From positions 1 to 39,147 of the forward strand of contig JACROU010000041.1 of NCBI GenBank assembly GCA_016214265.1: a stretch of 39,147 nt of DNA, read 5' to 3'. The stretch's first letter is position 1. Each line of letters begins with the position of its first letter. Below, piece after piece: positions 30,098 to 39,147 of the stretch. The position numbers and the translations under genes are program-made. The notes under the pieces are model-generated. The model was not told the origin of the DNA. It searched no databases and saw nothing but the letters and a program-made list of their open reading frames with translations. This DNA is from Candidatus Omnitrophota bacterium. Lineage in GTDB: Bacteria > Omnitrophota > Omnitrophia > Omnitrophales > JACROU01.

Positions 30098-30340
30098 TTA
30101 TTTTTTTATATTCAAAGTATTCAAGGTATTCTGAAACCACCGCTGGCCTTGTTTGTTGACCGAACTGACCTGATCTGGATTATATTGTGACGTTGCCTCA
30201 TGTCCCTTCGGATATGTTGTGATATTCCCCTGGCTCATCCCCCACGACGGTGTACTGTTCTTATCGGGTGCTGCTAACAATCCACTGGCTGAAACTGCCA
30301 ATATCATGATTAATCCTGCTGCAACTTTCAATGTATTCAT
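30098..30340 (-). CDS. Small secreted protein (80 aa), unknown
   Basis: A signal peptide of about 23 residues (cleavage after GLLAA) precedes a 57-residue mature region rich in Ser, Asn, Gln and Thr with SQYNPDQVSSVNKQGQRW. There are no cysteines or heme motifs. The AGGAGG ribosome site is 9 bases before the ATG. It lies 67 bases downstream of norZ and directly before the strong terminator, so it may be the last gene of the nnrS-norZ transcript. I recognise no family. Confidence 0.7.
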   Translation of the reverse strand: MNTLKVAAGLIMILAVSASGLLAAPDKNSTPSWGMSQGNITTYPKGHEATSQYNPDQVSSVNKQGQRWFQNTLNTLNIKK

Positions 30341-30407: not shown

Positions 30408-32678
30408 TTATCGGCCTGCGTTTTGATAGTTTTTCACAGGACGCATCGAAAACCAGCGAGTAACCATAAAATAGGCGATTGGGACGGTTCCGCCGAGCAC
30501 AAAAACCACATCCCCGAGCACTCGCGCCCAGGTAAATACTTGGAAAAATTGTGCATTGATGGTAGCTGAGCTGCGGGCAAACCAAAATCCGTGCAAATAG
30601 CTTTGAATCATCTGAAAAATGCCCACCGGAAAAATGCTGAAAACGAGCATGAACAAAAGCCCCAGGTTGATGGACCAGAATGAAATAGCCCACAACCGGT
30701 CATTCCATTTTTGGGGATCCACGATATACCGCGAGCAAAATGCTAGCGCAGCAATGGCCAGATTTCCGTAAACGCCCATCAGCGCCCCATGCCCGTGATT
30801 CGAAGTCAAATAAGTGGCGTGCTCATAATAGCTCACGATCGGAAGATTGATCAGGAATCCAAATACCCCGGCTCCCAAAAAATTCCAGAAACCGACGGCC
30901 ATCAGAAACATCACCGTCCATTTGTGCGGAAATTCTTTCGGGTCAACACCCAAAACACTTTTATCCTGATGCAGACGGATAAAATCCCACGCCTCTAGCG
31001 TCAGCAAAAACAGCGGGACCACTTCCATCGCCGAGAAAAACGATCCGAGCGCCAGATTGATGGCGGGCTGAGCGGTCCAATAATAATGATGTGCAGTACC
31101 GATCATACCGCTTCCCAGATAAAGCAGAATGTCGAGATACACAACGCGAAGCGCCGATCGGGATGTCACCAGTCCCAAAATCACGAAAAAATTCGCGACC
31201 ACAATCGTGGTGAACAGCTCAAAAAATCCCTCCACCCAAAGATGCACAATCCACCAGCGCCAGAAATCCGCGATAACGAAATTCGTACTCGGTTTGTACA
31301 TCATGCCGAACGAATACATCAGCGGAATAGCGATAATCGAGTAAAGCAACAAATACGGCATACTGCCCGGATCCTGGTTTTTGAGCGTCGGACGAATCGC
31401 GCGAAAGACGATAAACGCCCAAATCGCCATGCCGGCGGTCAGAAGAATTTGCCAGAGACGGCCGAGTTCCAGATATTCCCATCCCTGATGTCCGAGCCAG
31501 AACCAGAGATTGCCGAGCATGTTCTTTATGCCAAGCCATTCGCCGAAAATACTGCCCACCGCGACAATGACCACCGCCGTAAAAAGCACATTTACCAAGA
31601 GCGACTGCCATTTCGGTTCTTTTTCGGAAAGCATCGGCCCCACAAAAATTCCCGTCGCCAGCCAAGCCGTCGCAATCCAGAAAATCGAGAGCTGCAAATG
31701 CCAGCTGCGCGTAATGGTGGTTGGGAAAATACTGCGAATGTCGATTCCGTAAAATCCGGCGCCTTCCACAAAATAATGCGCCGTCACCACACCCATGAAT
31801 GTTTGAAACAAAAACAAAAGACTAACAACGACAAAAAATTTGTATGTCGCCTTCTGACTGGCCGTTAGTGGCCATCCGCCGATCGGCGGAAGCTTGATCT
31901 CGCTCACCTTGCCATGGCCCCAGCCCAGATAATCGAAGCGGCCAAAAAACATCAACACCAACCCCAGCGCGCCGAAGAGCGAAATAATGCTAAGCGCGCT
32001 CCACAAAAATACGGCGACCGAAGGGCGGTTGCCGGCATCTTTATCCGGCGGCCAGTTATTGGTGTAAGAATAATCTTTTCCGGGACGCGGTGTTGAGGCC
32101 GCCCATGCTGTCCACGCAAAAAAAGCCGTAAGACTGCGAATATCATTCACATCCGCGATATAATTTTTTGGAAGCGGCGCATCAGCCCCGGGATTTGTGA
32201 AGAAATCCTGATAATGCAATACCAATTTACTGAACGACTCGACTTCCACTTGTGAGGCGTGCAGTACTCCGGAAGCCGCGTCGTAACGGTTCGTTTTAAT
32301 TTCCGAGGTAACACGCTGATCGATCTCAGCTTTCTGTTCCGGATCGAGCGCCTCATAATTTTTATTAAAGCCTTTGATGGCGTATGTGTCCCGCGCCAGC
32401 ATGCTGGAGCGATGCAAATAGTCAGCGGTAAAATCCGGTCCACGGTAAGCTCCGTGTCCAAACACACTGCCGTAATCCATCAAACCGTAGCGCTGAAACA
32501 CTGCCTGACCAGCCAGAATATCTTTGCCGGTGTAAATAACGCGCCCGGCTGAATCTTCGACCTGTTTAAAAATCGGCGGCGCGTTGTTATACGTCTGACG
32601 CCCCATGAACATCAGCCCCGTAATTCCGATGATAATTGTGATAATGGCGCCATGACGCCACCAAGCATTAATTTCCAT
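30408..32678 (-). CDS. norZ: Quinol-dependent nitric oxide reductase (qNOR)
   Basis: The 756-residue protein reduces two NO to N2O with electrons from quinol in the inner membrane. The N-terminal part is the fused NorC-like domain; the rest is a heme-copper-superfamily core. Ligands seen: WHLQLSIFW, the FeB set VHLWVEG (His and the catalytic-site Glu) and GTAHHYYW, and the heme ligands in LTSNHGHGALMG. The AHYFVEG motif retains the His and Glu known from the quinol site of qNOR. All three FeB histidines are present, so this is a reductase and not an NO dismutase. AGGAG precedes the start by 6 bases. It follows nnrS by 29 bases. Confidence 0.96.
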   Translation of the reverse strand: MEINAWWRHGAIITIIIGITGLMFMGRQTYNNAPPIFKQVEDSAGRVIYTGKDILAGQAVFQRYGLMDYGSVFGHGAYRGPDFTADYLHRSSMLARDTYAIKGFNKNYEALDPEQKAEIDQRVTSEIKTNRYDAASGVLHASQVEVESFSKLVLHYQDFFTNPGADAPLPKNYIADVNDIRSLTAFFAWTAWAASTPRPGKDYSYTNNWPPDKDAGNRPSVAVFLWSALSIISLFGALGLVLMFFGRFDYLGWGHGKVSEIKLPPIGGWPLTASQKATYKFFVVVSLLFLFQTFMGVVTAHYFVEGAGFYGIDIRSIFPTTITRSWHLQLSIFWIATAWLATGIFVGPMLSEKEPKWQSLLVNVLFTAVVIVAVGSIFGEWLGIKNMLGNLWFWLGHQGWEYLELGRLWQILLTAGMAIWAFIVFRAIRPTLKNQDPGSMPYLLLYSIIAIPLMYSFGMMYKPSTNFVIADFWRWWIVHLWVEGFFELFTTIVVANFFVILGLVTSRSALRVVYLDILLYLGSGMIGTAHHYYWTAQPAINLALGSFFSAMEVVPLFLLTLEAWDFIRLHQDKSVLGVDPKEFPHKWTVMFLMAVGFWNFLGAGVFGFLINLPIVSYYEHATYLTSNHGHGALMGVYGNLAIAALAFCSRYIVDPQKWNDRLWAISFWSINLGLLFMLVFSIFPVGIFQMIQSYLHGFWFARSSATINAQFFQVFTWARVLGDVVFVLGGTVPIAYFMVTRWFSMRPVKNYQNAGR

Positions 32679-32707: not shown

Positions 32708-33982
32708 TTACTTTTTCTTTACTGATTCATGCTCGCGGTCAAAAGTTCCCGGCTCGGGCGAACGAAACACTTTTGGCAAGACAAAAAAGAACCAGGAAAG
32801 TGCGCCCGTAAGCCAAATCGCCGCAGCTGTCCCCAAAAAAGTGAAATAATTAATCGGAAAAAAATCGGCGGAAAAGCGGATCACAAGCGCCATCAAAACG
32901 CCGGCCCCAACGATCCACAGCACCGGCAAACGGCCGTATAGTATTGGCATCTCGCCCGCGTGACTCAAAATCACTACCGTTCCCACCGAAAAAGTCATCA
33001 AACTGAATCCGCCAAGAAAAACAAGGTGGAGCATAATCACCCGATAGTTTGGAAATAAAAATTCGCCCCAACTGCCAAGCGCGACCATCCAAAACGACAG
33101 CCACAACAACCAGGCGAAAACAGCCTTAACCCGGGGCGGTGTCGGCAAAGCACCGGTGAACAAAAATTCCGCGGTAACAATCAACGCTCTCAAACCGTAA
33201 GCTAAATATTTTTGATCAAATCCCTCGAGCCAAAAAGTCGCGAAAAGCAGAAAGCCCGCAGACACATGAATCATCATCCGCTCTTTGCGAATTTTCTCAA
33301 GCGATGATGGAGCGCAGGACGCCTCTTTATTCCTCAGATTTTCTGGATTAATCAGCTGTTGAACCCCCATCAATCGCGGCCCCAAAAATCCGCCGATACC
33401 CAGAACAATCGAAAACAGAAATCCCTGAAGCAGCATGGGCTTGCCAACATTCACTGTCCACATCGATGCAGAACTCAACATCCCAATCATCATGATGATA
33501 CTGCCGACAAGGCCGTGAAAAATACCGATGGGAATCCAGACAAATTCCGTGGGCGGATACACTTTCCGGTCACGGCGTCCCAACACACGAGAGAGTGCAA
33601 AACGCATAATCGCCAGAAGCCACAGGACGAAACAAGCGTAGGCTGCGACATACCACGCCAGTGTGAGAAATACAGTAATGCCCAACGTTAACGTTAAAAA
33701 AGAGAAGAGCTCCCCTTTCGTAGCATGAGGCGCAGCGGCAAATCGCGGCATAGCAGTCATGAGGAAACCGATAATGAAACAGCTCATGTACCCCTGCATT
33801 TGAATGGATGCGTGAAAAATTCCGGAACAGCTTTTGGTCACACCCAGCGCGAAAAAGAGCCAGTGACTGACACCAAACATGCCAATCACAATGCCCAGCG
33901 GAAAAAACAGCCGGTACGGCTCCTCGCAAAACAGATTGATCAGACGTGAAAAATTTGATTGAGCATTCATATTAGTAGACAT
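32708..33982 (-). CDS. nnrS: NnrS family heme-copper membrane protein
   Basis: The 424-residue protein has about 12 membrane helices and the NnrS pattern: RLFFPLG-like start (YRLFFPLGIVIGMFGVSHW), HASIQMQGYMSCFIIGFLMTAMPRF near residue 55, and MLHLVFLGGFSLMTFSVGTVVILSHAG near residue 330. NnrS is a heme- and copper-containing protein that protects against NO and iron-nitrosyl stress. The ATG at 33980-33982 is only about 5 bases from the predicted transcription start, so the ATG at 33968-33970, four codons in, may be the true start. It is co-transcribed with norZ. Confidence 0.93.
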   Translation of the reverse strand: MSTNMNAQSNFSRLINLFCEEPYRLFFPLGIVIGMFGVSHWLFFALGVTKSCSGIFHASIQMQGYMSCFIIGFLMTAMPRFAAAPHATKGELFSFLTLTLGITVFLTLAWYVAAYACFVLWLLAIMRFALSRVLGRRDRKVYPPTEFVWIPIGIFHGLVGSIIMMIGMLSSASMWTVNVGKPMLLQGFLFSIVLGIGGFLGPRLMGVQQLINPENLRNKEASCAPSSLEKIRKERMMIHVSAGFLLFATFWLEGFDQKYLAYGLRALIVTAEFLFTGALPTPPRVKAVFAWLLWLSFWMVALGSWGEFLFPNYRVIMLHLVFLGGFSLMTFSVGTVVILSHAGEMPILYGRLPVLWIVGAGVLMALVIRFSADFFPINYFTFLGTAAAIWLTGALSWFFFVLPKVFRSPEPGTFDREHESVKKK

Positions 33983-33993
33983 CCATGTCCATA

Positions 33994-34035
33994 ATTATAC
34001 GGCCTTACCACCTTAAATCTGTGATGCTCGTCACA
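33994..34035 (-). promoter_or_regulatory. nnrS-norZ promoter with CRP/FNR-family activator box
   Basis: Minus strand: a perfect TATAAT (complement at 33994-33999) and the exact palindrome TGTGA-N6-TCACA at 34020-34035. If transcription begins about 7 bases after the -10 box (near 33987), the palindrome centre falls at about -41, the standard class II activator position; no -35 box is needed. CRP-like half-sites of this kind are bound by CRP and by NO-responsive CRP/FNR relatives of the HcpR group. The regulator is not in the window. Confidence 0.75.
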
Positions 34036-34050: not shown

Positions 34051-34743
34051 TTAATGCCTTACGGAAATCAGAAAGGTGATAATTCCCAGCACAATCAAGA
34101 AACAGCCGGCCAAAATGCCACTCCAGCGGCGGATATCGAATTTAATCATCGTTCCGACAACGGCACTGGAAAGAATCGCGGGAAACGTTCCCGCACCAAA
34201 CGCGAGCATCATAAAAAATCCACGGAGCGCCCCTTCTACCCCGCCAAATCCACCGGACACTGCCGCGGAGAGTGCCGGCACAAGCACCATCGGGCACGGC
34301 AAAAGCCCCCAAACCATTCCGGTTAAAAAGGCGGCCTGCGATTTGTGGGAAGGCATGTGACTGCGAAATAATGAAAATAACCATCCTTCAGATTTTTTAA
34401 ACTGCATTTCAATTTTTGGGAGAAAACCAAAAAAGGACAGGCCGAGAATAATCAATAACACACTAAAAATAACCGGCAAGGTATGCGACAACTTCATCCA
34501 TCGGGACCAGGTGGCCAACAAACTTCCCGCGAAACCAAAAATGAGCCCGATGAGCGCGTAGGTAAAAGTTTTTCCGGCGGACAGCAGCACTTGAAAAAAA
34601 ATCCGGCGGCCGAGAGAGGCGTTTTGATCGCCAAACCGCGTACCCAGAAAAATTGCAAGCGGACCGCACATTCCAAGACAATGTCCGGCAGACAAAAGGC
34701 CGAGGATAAAACCACCGCTAATCCAAATCCAGATTTGATTCAT
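34051..34743 (-). CDS. SafE/DsbD-like membrane protein of the cbb3 cluster
   Basis: The 230-residue protein has six membrane helices and the GHCLGMCGPLA motif near residue 20 with two cysteines, plus GLLPCPMVLVPAL in the second half. This is the COG2836 'sulfite exporter TauE/SafE family' type often found beside ccoI and ccoS; its cysteines and position suggest copper transfer for oxidase assembly. It starts 4 bases after the stop of the copper ATPase. The CRP-type promoter of nnrS lies directly after its stop. Confidence 0.88.
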   Translation of the reverse strand: MNQIWIWISGGFILGLLSAGHCLGMCGPLAIFLGTRFGDQNASLGRRIFFQVLLSAGKTFTYALIGLIFGFAGSLLATWSRWMKLSHTLPVIFSVLLIILGLSFFGFLPKIEMQFKKSEGWLFSLFRSHMPSHKSQAAFLTGMVWGLLPCPMVLVPALSAAVSGGFGGVEGALRGFFMMLAFGAGTFPAILSSAVVGTMIKFDIRRWSGILAGCFLIVLGIITFLISVRH

Positions 34744-34746
34744 TAC

Positions 34747-36870
34747 TTATTTCTTTCCGCCAGCCGCAAGCGAGTTGGTGATGACAAAAAAACTGCTGAG
34801 CACCATCGCCGCACCCGCGATCATGGGATTGACAATACCTAGCACGGCAAGCGGAATTGCCACTGAGTTGTAAATTAGCGCCCAAAATAAATTTTGTTTG
34901 ATTTTCGACATCGTTTTTCGGGCCGTTTCAATCAGCCAGGGGATTTTTCTTAAGTCATCGTCCTGAAGTACGAAATCTGCTGCGGCGCGGGTTCGGTCCA
35001 GCCCTGACCCCATCGCCAAACTCACACTGCCGCGCGACAAAAGCGGCGCATCATTCAGCCCCTCACCCACTACCAGGGCCGGCCCATGCTTCGCCTCCCA
35101 GTTTGCGATCCAATCCATTTTATTTTCCGGTGACAAACCTTTCACCACTTCAATTGGGAGTGAATAAAAATAATAGCTGGCGGATTCACCGCCCGCGCCG
35201 GTTAAAATTCCCACTTCCAGACGCTCATCCAACAACTGCTTCAAAACATTTTCTGCGTGGAGCCGCAAATTTTCTTTGAATGAAACGAGTGCGCGCAATT
35301 TGCCGCTCCAACCCACAAGCAAATGCGGCTCCCCTTCCTTTGTATAGCGCTTCAGAATAGCCAGTTCATTCCATGTGCACGCGATACCATGAGATTCAAA
35401 ATAACGGACATTGCCGATAAAAACGCTGCCCACATCCGGCAAAACGGCGGACATACCTTCTCCCGCTTTTGTTTTCACATTTTCTGCCATAACCAGCTTG
35501 ATATCTCTCGCTGCCGCTTCTTTCGTGAGAGCCCTCGAAAGTGGATGCTCGGAAACTGAAGCCAGTGAACCGGCAATTCGAATAATTTCATTATCAGGCT
35601 CTGCAGTCCATCTCCGGATAAAATTAAACGCCAGGCCGCTCTCCGTAAGCGTTCCGGTTTTATCAAAAAATACGCCTCGCACATTGGCCAGCGTCTCAAG
35701 CCGGGATAAATCCTTAAAAAGAATCCCGCGACGTGTAATGTGCTCAAACACCCTCCAAAATGCAAGCGGCGTCGCCACACCTAGCGCGCACGGACAGGAA
35801 ATCATCAGCACTGAAAGCCCGCGCAAAATTGCCGCTTGAAATCCGCCATTTAGCCAACCCAACACAAACGCTGAGACGGCCGCGAAAACAGAAAGCCACG
35901 TAAAAAATAACGCCAGTTGGTCCGCCAGTTTTTCGATCGGAGCCTTCGATTGTTTGGCTTCTTCAATCGTTCGCTCAAGCCGATGAAGCCAGGATTCAGA
36001 TTCTTTCTGTGTAACGCGTATTTTTAAATATCCCTCCACCAATGTCATGCCCGCAATTACGGCATCCGATTTCTTTTTAATTGATGGGATTATTTCGCCA
36101 TCCAGCGACGAGGTTTCCACCAGCCCGTCCCCTGCCACAATCACACCATCAACCGGAATTTTTGTTCCGGCGCAAACCAGAATCTCGTCCCCGATCTCCA
36201 AAATTTCAGGACTCACCGCCACTTCACGCGCCTTATCGATCCGGATAACCGGTTTTTTATCCTCACGGAAAAGCTCCTTGAGGGACTGCGTGGTTTTAAA
36301 ACGAAACCGGGCTTCCAAATACCGGCCGAGCGTCAAAAACACCAGCACCATCACGCTAACGTCATAATAAAGCGGCCCCGCACCGCGAAACGTTGAAATA
36401 AGCGAATAGATAAAGGATGCCGCAACGCCGACACCAATAAAACCGTCGACGCTCCAGCGACGCTCGCGCACTTCATGAATAATATTTTCAAAAAGCGGCG
36501 CGCCAAGAAGGAACAACACTGGCACGGAAAGAAATAAAAGCAGATAACGCATCATTTCATCCAGAACTTTTCCCATCGTGGAAATATGACTGAAAAAATC
36601 AGGATAGATGGAAGAGGAATGAAGTGCGAGACTGAATCCCATCACGTTCATAGCGAAAAAAGCGGAAATGCCGAGCCTGACCATAATCCAGTTTACAGGT
36701 TTGGCAGCTCCGTCTTTCGCGCCAATAATTTGATAGGCAAATGCGCATCCGTAACAGCAGAATTCGGAACTTTTATTTTTTTTTACTTTTACAGGCAAAC
36801 CGCAATGGCGGCATAAGTGAGAAGAAAGACGGGGTGGAACAGCTTCGGCAGTTTCAGAACCAGAAGTCAT
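34747..36870 (-). CDS. ccoI: Copper-translocating P-type ATPase for cbb3 oxidase (CcoI/FixI type)
   Basis: The 707-residue pump has the CcoI/FixI N-terminus (CRHCG near residue 20 and FCCYGCAFAY near 37) in place of a standard GMxCxxC domain, eight predicted helices, the membrane metal site SCPCALG, the phosphorylation motif DKTGTLT near residue 403, SEHPLSRAL and GEGLNDAP. The actuator loop reads SLDGEIIP where most relatives have TGE, so the first residue is Asp. It supplies copper to the CuB site during cbb3 assembly. GGGAGAG precedes the ATG. The previous gene ends 22 bases upstream. Confidence 0.93.
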   Translation of the reverse strand: MTSGSETAEAVPPRLSSHLCRHCGLPVKVKKNKSSEFCCYGCAFAYQIIGAKDGAAKPVNWIMVRLGISAFFAMNVMGFSLALHSSSIYPDFFSHISTMGKVLDEMMRYLLLFLSVPVLFLLGAPLFENIIHEVRERRWSVDGFIGVGVAASFIYSLISTFRGAGPLYYDVSVMVLVFLTLGRYLEARFRFKTTQSLKELFREDKKPVIRIDKAREVAVSPEILEIGDEILVCAGTKIPVDGVIVAGDGLVETSSLDGEIIPSIKKKSDAVIAGMTLVEGYLKIRVTQKESESWLHRLERTIEEAKQSKAPIEKLADQLALFFTWLSVFAAVSAFVLGWLNGGFQAAILRGLSVLMISCPCALGVATPLAFWRVFEHITRRGILFKDLSRLETLANVRGVFFDKTGTLTESGLAFNFIRRWTAEPDNEIIRIAGSLASVSEHPLSRALTKEAAARDIKLVMAENVKTKAGEGMSAVLPDVGSVFIGNVRYFESHGIACTWNELAILKRYTKEGEPHLLVGWSGKLRALVSFKENLRLHAENVLKQLLDERLEVGILTGAGGESASYYFYSLPIEVVKGLSPENKMDWIANWEAKHGPALVVGEGLNDAPLLSRGSVSLAMGSGLDRTRAAADFVLQDDDLRKIPWLIETARKTMSKIKQNLFWALIYNSVAIPLAVLGIVNPMIAGAAMVLSSFFVITNSLAAGGKK

Positions 36871-36892
36871 GAACTCTCCCTATCCGGGAAAA

Positions 36893-37081
36893 TTACCACC
36901 AGCGGACAAAATCTTTGAGGGCGAAAACGAGGAGGTAAAAAACAGCCCATACGGCAAAAATAAGCCACATGAGGATGATCCACCAGGGAATCCGGTTAGT
37001 TTGATAGGAAATATGATTTTCTCCAGAAGTCTCGGGTGGCTTATTGCTGGACTCAGAACTTTTACTTTTTTCAGGATCCAT
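36893..37081 (-). CDS. Small single-helix membrane protein of the cbb3 cluster
   Basis: The 62-residue protein begins MDPEKSKSSE, has a charged, Pro-rich N-terminal half and one membrane helix (about residues 31-55, WWIILMWLIFAVWAVFYLL) followed by KDFVRWW. The ATG at 37079-37081 lies inside the end of the preceding CcoS-like gene and follows a GGAGAG site, so it is translationally coupled. Small helices of this kind occur as accessory subunits or assembly factors of cbb3 oxidases (CcoQ- or CcoH-like role possible), but I cannot assign a family. Confidence 0.7.
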   Translation of the reverse strand: MDPEKSKSSESSNKPPETSGENHISYQTNRIPWWIILMWLIFAVWAVFYLLVFALKDFVRWW

Positions 37082-37379
37082 GAGCTTTACTCTCCATCTC
37101 ATCCAATTCTTGTTCCCGCTCAAGCATGCGATACTTGGGACCCTCGATATCGGAAAGCATCCCTTTCATCATGCCCCAAATAAAAATGGAAAGAAATCCG
37201 GCGCTGACAAGCAAATAAGTCGCAATCGGAACCAGAGCGAAACGCCCTTCACGATTAGAAGCAAGCACATAAAAAAACTGAATTAATTTATCTCCGAATC
37301 CCAGCGCACCGGGAATCAAGATTAAAACCGCCATCACGCTGACGGTAATTTTTTTGGCCAAAGACGTTTTTGGGTTCAT
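37071..37379 (-). CDS. CcoS-like cbb3 oxidase assembly protein
   Basis: The 102-residue protein has two membrane helices (about residues 9-30 and 52-72) and then WGMMKGMLSDIEGPKYRMLERE, which corresponds to the CcoS tail pattern (W-x-x-x-x-G-x-x-D-x-E-x-P-x-x-R). CcoS is needed for copper and heme insertion into cbb3 oxidase. It is longer than ordinary CcoS (about 50-60 residues) because of an additional N-terminal helix. It starts 2 bases after the ccoO stop. Confidence 0.7.
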   Translation of the reverse strand: MNPKTSLAKKITVSVMAVLILIPGALGFGDKLIQFFYVLASNREGRFALVPIATYLLVSAGFLSIFIWGMMKGMLSDIEGPKYRMLEREQELDEMESKAHGS

Positions 37380-37381
37380 CG

Positions 37382-37996
37382 CTATTTCGCCTTCCCACCT
37401 TTAATCATATCTTCATTCCAGCTTCCCAGCCACTGCACGTACGCAATAATGGCCAACCCTTTCTTGTTGGGCTGATCATTCTTATCAAAAAACCACGTGT
37501 ATCTGGGCATCACACTGGTGGGAGCTACATCGCGCGGATTGAAAAAATGAGCGGCATGCCAGTCATTACTGTGCTTGCCCCACTCCCGGATCAGATCCGG
37601 ACCCACGCGCCGCGTGCCAAACATTTGCGGCATTTGAAGTTCATTCTGATATTCCAGCGCTTCGGACACCACTCCAAACCGGATATCCTCGTTAGATACG
37701 GGACGGACAAACTGACTGTGACAATGCCAGCACGCTTCGCTGATATAAATGTCACGTCCGGATTTGAGCGCGCGGCCGTACGACTCTGAGCTGGGAGTGC
37801 CATAATATTTTTTAAAATTTTCGGGATAACGCACGGACAGATCGACGAATTCTTTGGTCAGCTGCTGCGAAAGCTCGGAAACTGTTTTAACCGACTGATT
37901 GCGGAATGAAAGCCAGGGTAAAAACGCCATCACAAGAATGGAGAACGAAAAGAATAAAAGTCCGGCCACCAAAAATACTGTCTTAAACCGTTCCAT
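37382..37996 (-). CDS. ccoO: cbb3-type cytochrome c oxidase subunit II, monoheme cytochrome c
   Basis: The 204-residue protein has one N-terminal membrane anchor and a heme c site CWHCH (89-93), followed by RPVSNEDIRFG, the QMFGTRRVGPDL segment and TSVMPRYTWFF with the axial Met. CcoO passes electrons to the CcoN heme in the periplasm. The length is typical. It begins 3 bases after the ccoN stop. No ccoP diheme subunit follows it here. Confidence 0.95.
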   Translation of the reverse strand: MERFKTVFLVAGLLFFSFSILVMAFLPWLSFRNQSVKTVSELSQQLTKEFVDLSVRYPENFKKYYGTPSSESYGRALKSGRDIYISEACWHCHSQFVRPVSNEDIRFGVVSEALEYQNELQMPQMFGTRRVGPDLIREWGKHSNDWHAAHFFNPRDVAPTSVMPRYTWFFDKNDQPNKKGLAIIAYVQWLGSWNEDMIKGGKAK

Positions 37997-37999
37997 AAA

Positions 38000-39147
38000 T
38001 TAAGCCGCCTCTTGAGAAGTCAATGCGGGAGAATCTTTTCGCACCGCTGTTTTCCACATATTGTAAACTAGGAGAATCTGCGCCACGAGAAGCGCCACGC
38101 CCGTTACCTCGCGCAGCCACCAGAATGGCATTGAGGCCACCACCGACTGCTCCCACGGAGCCAGGTTCTTCCATAAAAACCCTTGGACCAAACCGGCAAC
38201 CAAAAGATCCAGGAACATTACTAAAGTTCCGAGCATGGTCAACCAATAATGCCACTCGTTTAATTTTTCCGAATACCAGGCTTTACCAGTCAACCGGGGC
38301 CAAAGGTAATTGTTCATGCCTAAAATCCAGAATCCAAAAACGCCGAGCATCACCAAATGGCCGTGTCCCACAACCCAGTCGGAGAAATGAATAATTTTCT
38401 GGAACGTCAGTGTCGTCTGAAAGGAACATTGCAGGCAGGTCAGAAAATAAAAAACCATTCCGGTAAAAAACCAGCGGATGGGAAGATTATTTCGAAACGC
38501 CCCTTGAACGCTAGACACTGTCGCAAAGAAGTTGACGATAACCGTCGTCACCACCAGTTCAACGGCAATGGTGGCCACAATTGCGCCGTATTGCAAATAC
38601 ATCGGAATCGGACTATAGAGAAAATGATGAATTCCGTTTAGCGGATAAAAAAACGCCAGCCCCCAAAATCCGACTAGCGAAAGTCCATGGCTCCAGACAG
38701 GTTTCTTTAAAATGATGGGAACAAAGTAATACATCAATCCCCAGCCGATTGGCGTCACAAAAAGTCCCACAAGATCATGAATGAAAAGCCCGCCAAGCGC
38801 GGCGCCCGCTGAACCCGCCACAAAAAACTGCGGAAAATAATTTCCCATAATGTAAACCAAAATGGTCCAGATAAGCGCCACGGTGAAATACCACAGGGAA
38901 ACGTACAGATTCTGCTCTCCAGTCCGGATAATCGGCGCCAAAAAATTAATGGCGACCAGAATTAATCCGACCACAATTAGCGGATCGATAAAAATGGGTG
39001 TCTCCGCCCATTCAACACCCTGCCCGTAGCCAAGCAGCATTCCAACAATCGTGGCCGTCATCGCAAACTGCCACGCCCAAAAGATAAACCATCCCAGAAA
39101 TTTATTGAATGTCGGCTTTCCAGTCAAACGCGGTATCGCCCAATTAA
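38000..39147 (-). CDS. ccoN: cbb3-type cytochrome c oxidase subunit I (partial, N-terminus outside window)
   Basis: The frame is open to the right edge (upstream residues read NWAIPRL before TGKPTF), so about 381 C-terminal residues of a protein usually near 480 are seen. The CuB ligands are visible as IHDLVGLFVTPIGWG and NGIHHFLYSPIPMYLQYGA, and the heme ligands as VVGHGHLVMLGVFGF. CcoN is the catalytic subunit that reduces oxygen at high affinity. It is followed by ccoO, the CcoS-like gene, a small membrane protein, ccoI and the SafE-type gene, a conventional cbb3 order except for the missing ccoP. Confidence 0.95.
   Translation of the reverse strand, partial: NWAIPRLTGKPTFNKFLGWFIFWAWQFAMTATIVGMLLGYGQGVEWAETPIFIDPLIVVGLILVAINFLAPIIRTGEQNLYVSLWYFTVALIWTILVYIMGNYFPQFFVAGSAGAALGGLFIHDLVGLFVTPIGWGLMYYFVPIILKKPVWSHGLSLVGFWGLAFFYPLNGIHHFLYSPIPMYLQYGAIVATIAVELVVTTVIVNFFATVSSVQGAFRNNLPIRWFFTGMVFYFLTCLQCSFQTTLTFQKIIHFSDWVVGHGHLVMLGVFGFWILGMNNYLWPRLTGKAWYSEKLNEWHYWLTMLGTLVMFLDLLVAGLVQGFLWKNLAPWEQSVVASMPFWWLREVTGVALLVAQILLVYNMWKTAVRKDSPALTSQEAA

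Follow-up and report, generated by a model that had tools for sequence, protein, structure and literature searches.

A probable class II Crp-type promoter before nnrS-norZ in an Omnitrophota genome, likely read by a four-cysteine Crp/Fnr regulator

The window analysed here, that is, the whole stretch of 39,147 nucleotides, is contig C24 of a 2.3-Mb metagenome-assembled genome of Candidatus Omnitrophota (G000), an uncultured groundwater bacterium. A Crp-type operator and a perfect -10 hexamer lie between a block of cbb3 and CopA genes and the nnrS-norZ pair, with the following features:

34747..39127, minus strand: upstream same-strand block encoding a CopA-like P-type ATPase, a FixS-like protein, FixO (CcoO) and CcoN
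34051..34743, minus strand: upstream neighbour encoding a DsbD_2/SafE-like membrane protein, at the end of the cbb3/CopA block
34035-34020, minus strand: Crp-type operator TGTGACGAGCATCACA, centred at 34027.5 and reading TGTGATGCTCGTCACA on the plus strand
34018..34019, minus strand: GA directly 3' of the box, a conserved asymmetric extension
Between GA and TATAAT, minus strand: 18-bp stretch
33999-33994, minus strand: -10 hexamer TATAAT, perfect, its first T at centre+28.5
33986..33988, minus strand: expected transcription start, as predicted from the -10 hexamer
32708..33982, minus strand: nnrS (NnrS, PF05940, by Pfam), lead gene of the controlled unit
33970, minus strand: alternative in-frame start ATG of nnrS
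30408..32678, minus strand: norZ-type quinol NO reductase gene, separated from nnrS by 29 bp and encoding a NorB cytochrome-c-like domain (PF22085) together with COX1

Domain searches (Pfam/NCBIfam) confirmed the CopA-like, FixS, FixO and CcoN identities. CcoN is truncated at the contig end, and the start and promoter of the cbb3 operon lie outside the contig. Directly 3' of norZ, the minus strand also carries a gene for a predicted secreted 80-aa protein of no known family (window 30098-30340), which may share the norZ transcript.

In class II Crp-type promoters, the operator is centred about 41.5 bp before the transcription start, overlapping the -35 region, and is combined with a -10 element. 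A start 6-7 nt after the -10 hexamer would lie ~40-42 bp from the palindrome centre, and on this geometry, with a predicted start, the nnrS site has the layout of a class II promoter. An earlier note on this DNA had described the box and TATAAT as both perfect, with the palindrome centre about 41 bases before the expected start; our analysis confirmed the letters and coordinates and gave a spacing of 28.5 bp from the palindrome centre to the first T of TATAAT. Its placement of the site in a 68-base gap within a same-strand gene block is likewise correct, the gap running from the stop of the upstream gene at 34051 to the nnrS ATG at 33982 and containing both the operator and the -10 hexamer. 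With the predicted start, a leader ending at ATG 33982 would comprise only ~4-6 nt, a nearly leaderless and awkward arrangement, and ATG 33970 would give a more usual length. Homologs of nnrS mostly align from about residue 14 onward, and translation may possibly begin at either ATG. An Rfam search of the promoter returned no RNA element.

Chance alone would give only 0.01 perfect TGTGA-N6-TCACA boxes in the window, and the composite of box and -10 (TAnnnT) occurs once there and in none of 100 shuffles. The 2.3-Mb genome holds four perfect boxes, compared with none for a reversed control pattern; we discounted the fourth (C34), which falls inside a coding sequence, as probably a chance match. 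Using a promoter model trained on 35 sites behind regulator genes, all from other genomes, we observed a sole strong match in the 39-kb window, namely the nnrS site on the gene strand (21.5 bits). The same palindrome in the opposite orientation scored 10.0 bits, and the best unrelated position 4.6 bits; since the two orientations are scored unequally, the model also selects the direction of nnrS. The site is thus intergenic, at a proper distance from a gene, and the correctly oriented top match of an independently trained model, which, together with the chance counts, makes it very improbable that palindrome and TATAAT are both fortuitous, even though no orthologous nnrS carries the box directly upstream. 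Very probably, the site is a real on-switch for nnrS-norZ.

Just two cNMP-binding proteins were found in the genome, of which one is the only stand-alone Crp/Fnr regulator:

Contig C13:54233-54904: P0012, 224 aa

P0012 belongs to the Crp/Fnr superfamily, with PF00027, PF13545 and PF00325 above cut-off, and no named NCBIfam subfamily reached its cut-off. Orthologs were located by an alignment-based scan, a single-sequence scan having returned none, and they define 26 of the 58 genomes searched, our own included, as regulator-positive (at least 47% identity, plus one ortholog cut by a contig end). The named relatives among them are metagenome assemblies of Candidatus Omnitrophota, recovered mainly from groundwater. 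In 36 of 41 ortholog loci, the regulator stop codon is followed, at a distance of 1-345 nt, by a box with no more than one mismatch, which usually precedes a hemerythrin gene. The sites behind the regulator share the consensus TGTGAC-N4-GTCACA-GAc, with G at the first position of the extension in 35/36 of them and A at the second in 26/36. When TAnnnT is placed at centre+29.5, the mean match to TATAAT is 3.39 of 6, against ~1.3-2.7 at nearly all other offsets; the window spacing (centre+28.5) is 1 bp shorter than this family mode. Class II geometry is thus conserved at orthologous sites across the phylum. The same geometry bears on whether the site instead represses, or merely fine-tunes, read-through from the upstream cbb3/CopA genes. 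The same-strand block and the 68-bp gap, inside which no terminator-like site was found, would suit such a role, which the conservation of an activator-type arrangement renders rather unlikely.

We defined the composite promoter as GTGAYNNNNRTCACWG-N18-21-TANNNT and scanned for the regulon by pattern searches. The composite was present in 25/26 regulator genomes versus 2/32 without the regulator (Fisher p=5e-13, with phylogeny ignored and some genomes incomplete). Over 193 genomes, 104 composite sites fell in 29 regulator genomes, G009 being counted among these on a partial match, and 6 in the 164 others; the reversed control pattern yielded 7 in all, and the 6 sites in regulator-less genomes equal this control rate. 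Sites other than those behind crp provide the fairer test, because the crp-downstream sites defined the pattern.

The six composite sites of this genome precede DUF2934-like/radical-SAM genes behind crp, a hemerythrin gene, Rrf2-nosZ, cytochrome c554 plus hemerythrin genes, nnrS-norZ and an outer-membrane protein gene; the NosZ assignment was confirmed (854 bits). Rrf2-nosZ or nosZ stands behind the box in G000, G002, G016, G020 and G022, and an Rrf2 gene also in G012. Other first genes encode hemerythrins, c-type multihaem cytochromes, MoaA (five genomes), FeoB (two), FTR1 permease (two), anaerobic ribonucleotide reductase (NrdD; one) and a cytochrome oxidase operon (one). Representatives were labelled by Pfam and the remainder by sequence likeness to them; some first genes carry no label, and part of the composite sites may be due to chance. 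Overall, this computed regulon looks like a set for anaerobic and N-oxide respiration, wider than NO defence. Taken by itself, neither the presence of nosZ (p=0.08) nor that of norZ (p=0.65) correlated significantly with the regulator.

The nosZ of this genome is of clade II (Sec-dependent) and lies behind the Rrf2-family gene, with the same box upstream (L031 8981-11456, G000:C13:56980-59455). This Rrf2-family regulator has three cysteines at the spacing expected of an Fe-S cluster, and a two-step regulatory cascade is possible. Behind the box-led cytochrome c554 gene lies a gene for a large protein whose N-terminal half is rich in cysteines and which carries a hemerythrin domain at its C-terminus (L032 6438-7487, G000:C13). 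In G008 (L161 231-6926, G008:C4), a box behind nnrS leads an operon encoding cytochrome oxidase subunits; a porin-like gene and a multihaem (octahaem-like) cytochrome gene come next.

The recognition helix of P0012 has the CRP-type pattern R-E-T-x-x-R, and R188, E189, T190 and R193 are invariant among the 25 aligned orthologs. Arg and Glu at these helix positions predict G3 and A6 of the site, i.e. TGTGA (Rodionov et al, 2005; PMC1274295). Given this published rule and the invariance of R188 and E189, regulator and box match each other. TTGAT-type specificity goes with the lack of Arg at position 180, and in the P0012 family the equivalent residue of CRP R180 is the invariant R188. The earlier view of a class II promoter before nnrS-norZ, served by a Crp/Fnr-family activator of CRP-type rather than FNR/DNR-type specificity, is supported.

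The sensor domain bears on the signal. P0012 matched PDB profiles with E=4e-28, and its closest solved folds, also by Foldseek, are cAMP-binding CRPs; its structure model is of modest confidence (pTM 0.58). With these folds, a CRP-like recognition helix and a box identical to the E. coli CRP consensus, the site might be taken for a cAMP-CRP site serving carbon control. In the alignment to M. tuberculosis CRP, however, C80 takes the place of the Glu and C89 that of the Thr in the cAMP cassette, and P0012 thus departs from the Glu and Arg-Ser/Thr signature of the phosphate-binding cassette that marks cAMP-dependent CRPs. Cysteines at these positions make cAMP control unlikely; as the targets are also respiratory and anaerobic, not catabolic, we regard a carbon-control site as very improbable. 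C44, C78, C80 and C89 are invariant among the 25 orthologs, and no histidine is invariant in that alignment. Judged by its sequence, P0012 belongs to a Crp/Fnr subfamily, found to date in Omnitrophota, that combines CRP-type DNA specificity with four invariant cysteines of the sensor barrel. We propose that these cysteines most likely hold a metal or Fe-S centre reporting O2 and/or NO, because all four are invariant, the N-terminal cysteines of FNR and an invariant His are absent, and the cAMP cassette is altered. NO is a possible signal for P0012. More tentatively, the family could represent a gas/redox sensor class of its own: Crp-type activators in which a four-cysteine metal/Fe-S site has replaced the cAMP pocket and which, acting on CRP-type boxes, would serve Omnitrophota as their counterpart of FNR. 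We also compared RedB (PMC9603854) and rejected it as a match, since the paper says nothing of cysteines and its motif is different and asymmetric.

The earlier note had favoured HcpR as the regulator. Desulfovibrio HcpR1 binds the same TGTGA-N6-TCACA box (PMC5701242), genes for hemerythrin and cytochrome c are frequent members of predicted HcpR regulons (PMC1274295, PMC5701242), and the targets here comprise NnrS, NorZ and NosZ, all of which would agree with an HcpR-type, strictly NO-sensing and haem-dependent P0012. Against this, the defining target hcp (PF03063) is absent from this genome, and hcp and the four-cysteine regulator are mutually exclusive: hcp occurs in 0/26 regulator genomes versus 18/32 others, with zero overlap in the 58 genomes (p=1e-6). 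Four invariant cysteines in place of an invariant histidine, and a regulon with the general anaerobic functions NrdD, MoaA and FeoB, also speak against HcpR, and we consider this assignment unlikely.

We found nnrS in 12 genomes, all with the regulator (12/12); the two same-family genomes lack nnrS. The box stands directly before nnrS in 0/10 relatives with usable flanks, contrary to what the earlier note had expected of orthologous nnrS genes, and the nnrS promoter arrangement is for this reason beyond phylogenetic footprinting. The outcome for the refuting condition of the note is mixed, since the box heads an unbroken same-strand run ending in nnrS in two relatives: in G020 the run is box-Rrf2-nosZ-...-nnrS, and in G008 its first element is the crp-downstream box. 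In G025, the crp-downstream box is followed at 6 kb by nnrS-norZ in the same orientation. The wiring of nnrS appears to have shifted while its link to the regulator stayed. A second, distant Crp/Fnr gene (25-28% identity) adjoins nnrS in G013 (L162, G013:C52, 3965-4597) and shares a contig with nnrS in G003 (G003:C49:6383-7009); it possibly encodes a DNR/NnrR-type regulator.

Taken together, we consider it likely that the nnrS-norZ site is a class II activator promoter read by P0012, a putative metal/Fe-S sensor of O2 and/or NO governing a small anaerobic/N-oxide regulon. The site, its promoter geometry, the association of regulator with box and the make-up of the regulon are computed results; binding, activation, cofactor and signal are what we infer from sequence. 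A P0012 dimer would bind TGTGAC-N4-RTCACA-GA centred ~41 bp before the start, cover the -35 region and recruit RNA polymerase to TATAAT. When O2 is lost or NO appears, the regulon would then be turned on: hemerythrin, Rrf2-nosZ and cytochromes c, joined in this species by nnrS-norZ.

Our searches of the open literature returned no regulon described for Omnitrophota, a large phylum that is known chiefly through metagenomes. The present analysis ties one regulator to one promoter type over 29 genomes, suggests how the genes for NO and N2O reduction are turned on in this phylum, and points to a candidate sensor with four invariant cysteines, located in part at what was the cAMP site.

Among known systems, HcpR1 of Desulfovibrio resembles P0012 in its box, its R180/E181-type recognition helix and its N-oxide targets, among them genes for hemerythrin and cytochrome c (PMC1274295, PMC5701242); it differs in its reported binding of haem b, whereas the P0012 family has four invariant cysteines and neither an hcp gene nor an hcp target. 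DNR and NnrR likewise control nnrS, nor and nos genes, but through TTG-type boxes and with other sensor residues. With FNR and FnrP, P0012 has in common the class II promoters and a regulon of anaerobic genes (NrdD, FeoB, respiratory genes), and the four cysteines of P0012 could hold a cluster. Whereas FNR combines an N-terminal cluster of cysteines with a single barrel cysteine and a TTGAT box, P0012 has its first invariant cysteine at C44, all four in the barrel, and is associated with TGTGA. The CRPs of E. coli and M. tuberculosis are alike in fold, recognition helix, box and class II geometry, and P0012 departs from them in having cysteines at cAMP-contacting positions and a respiratory regulon.
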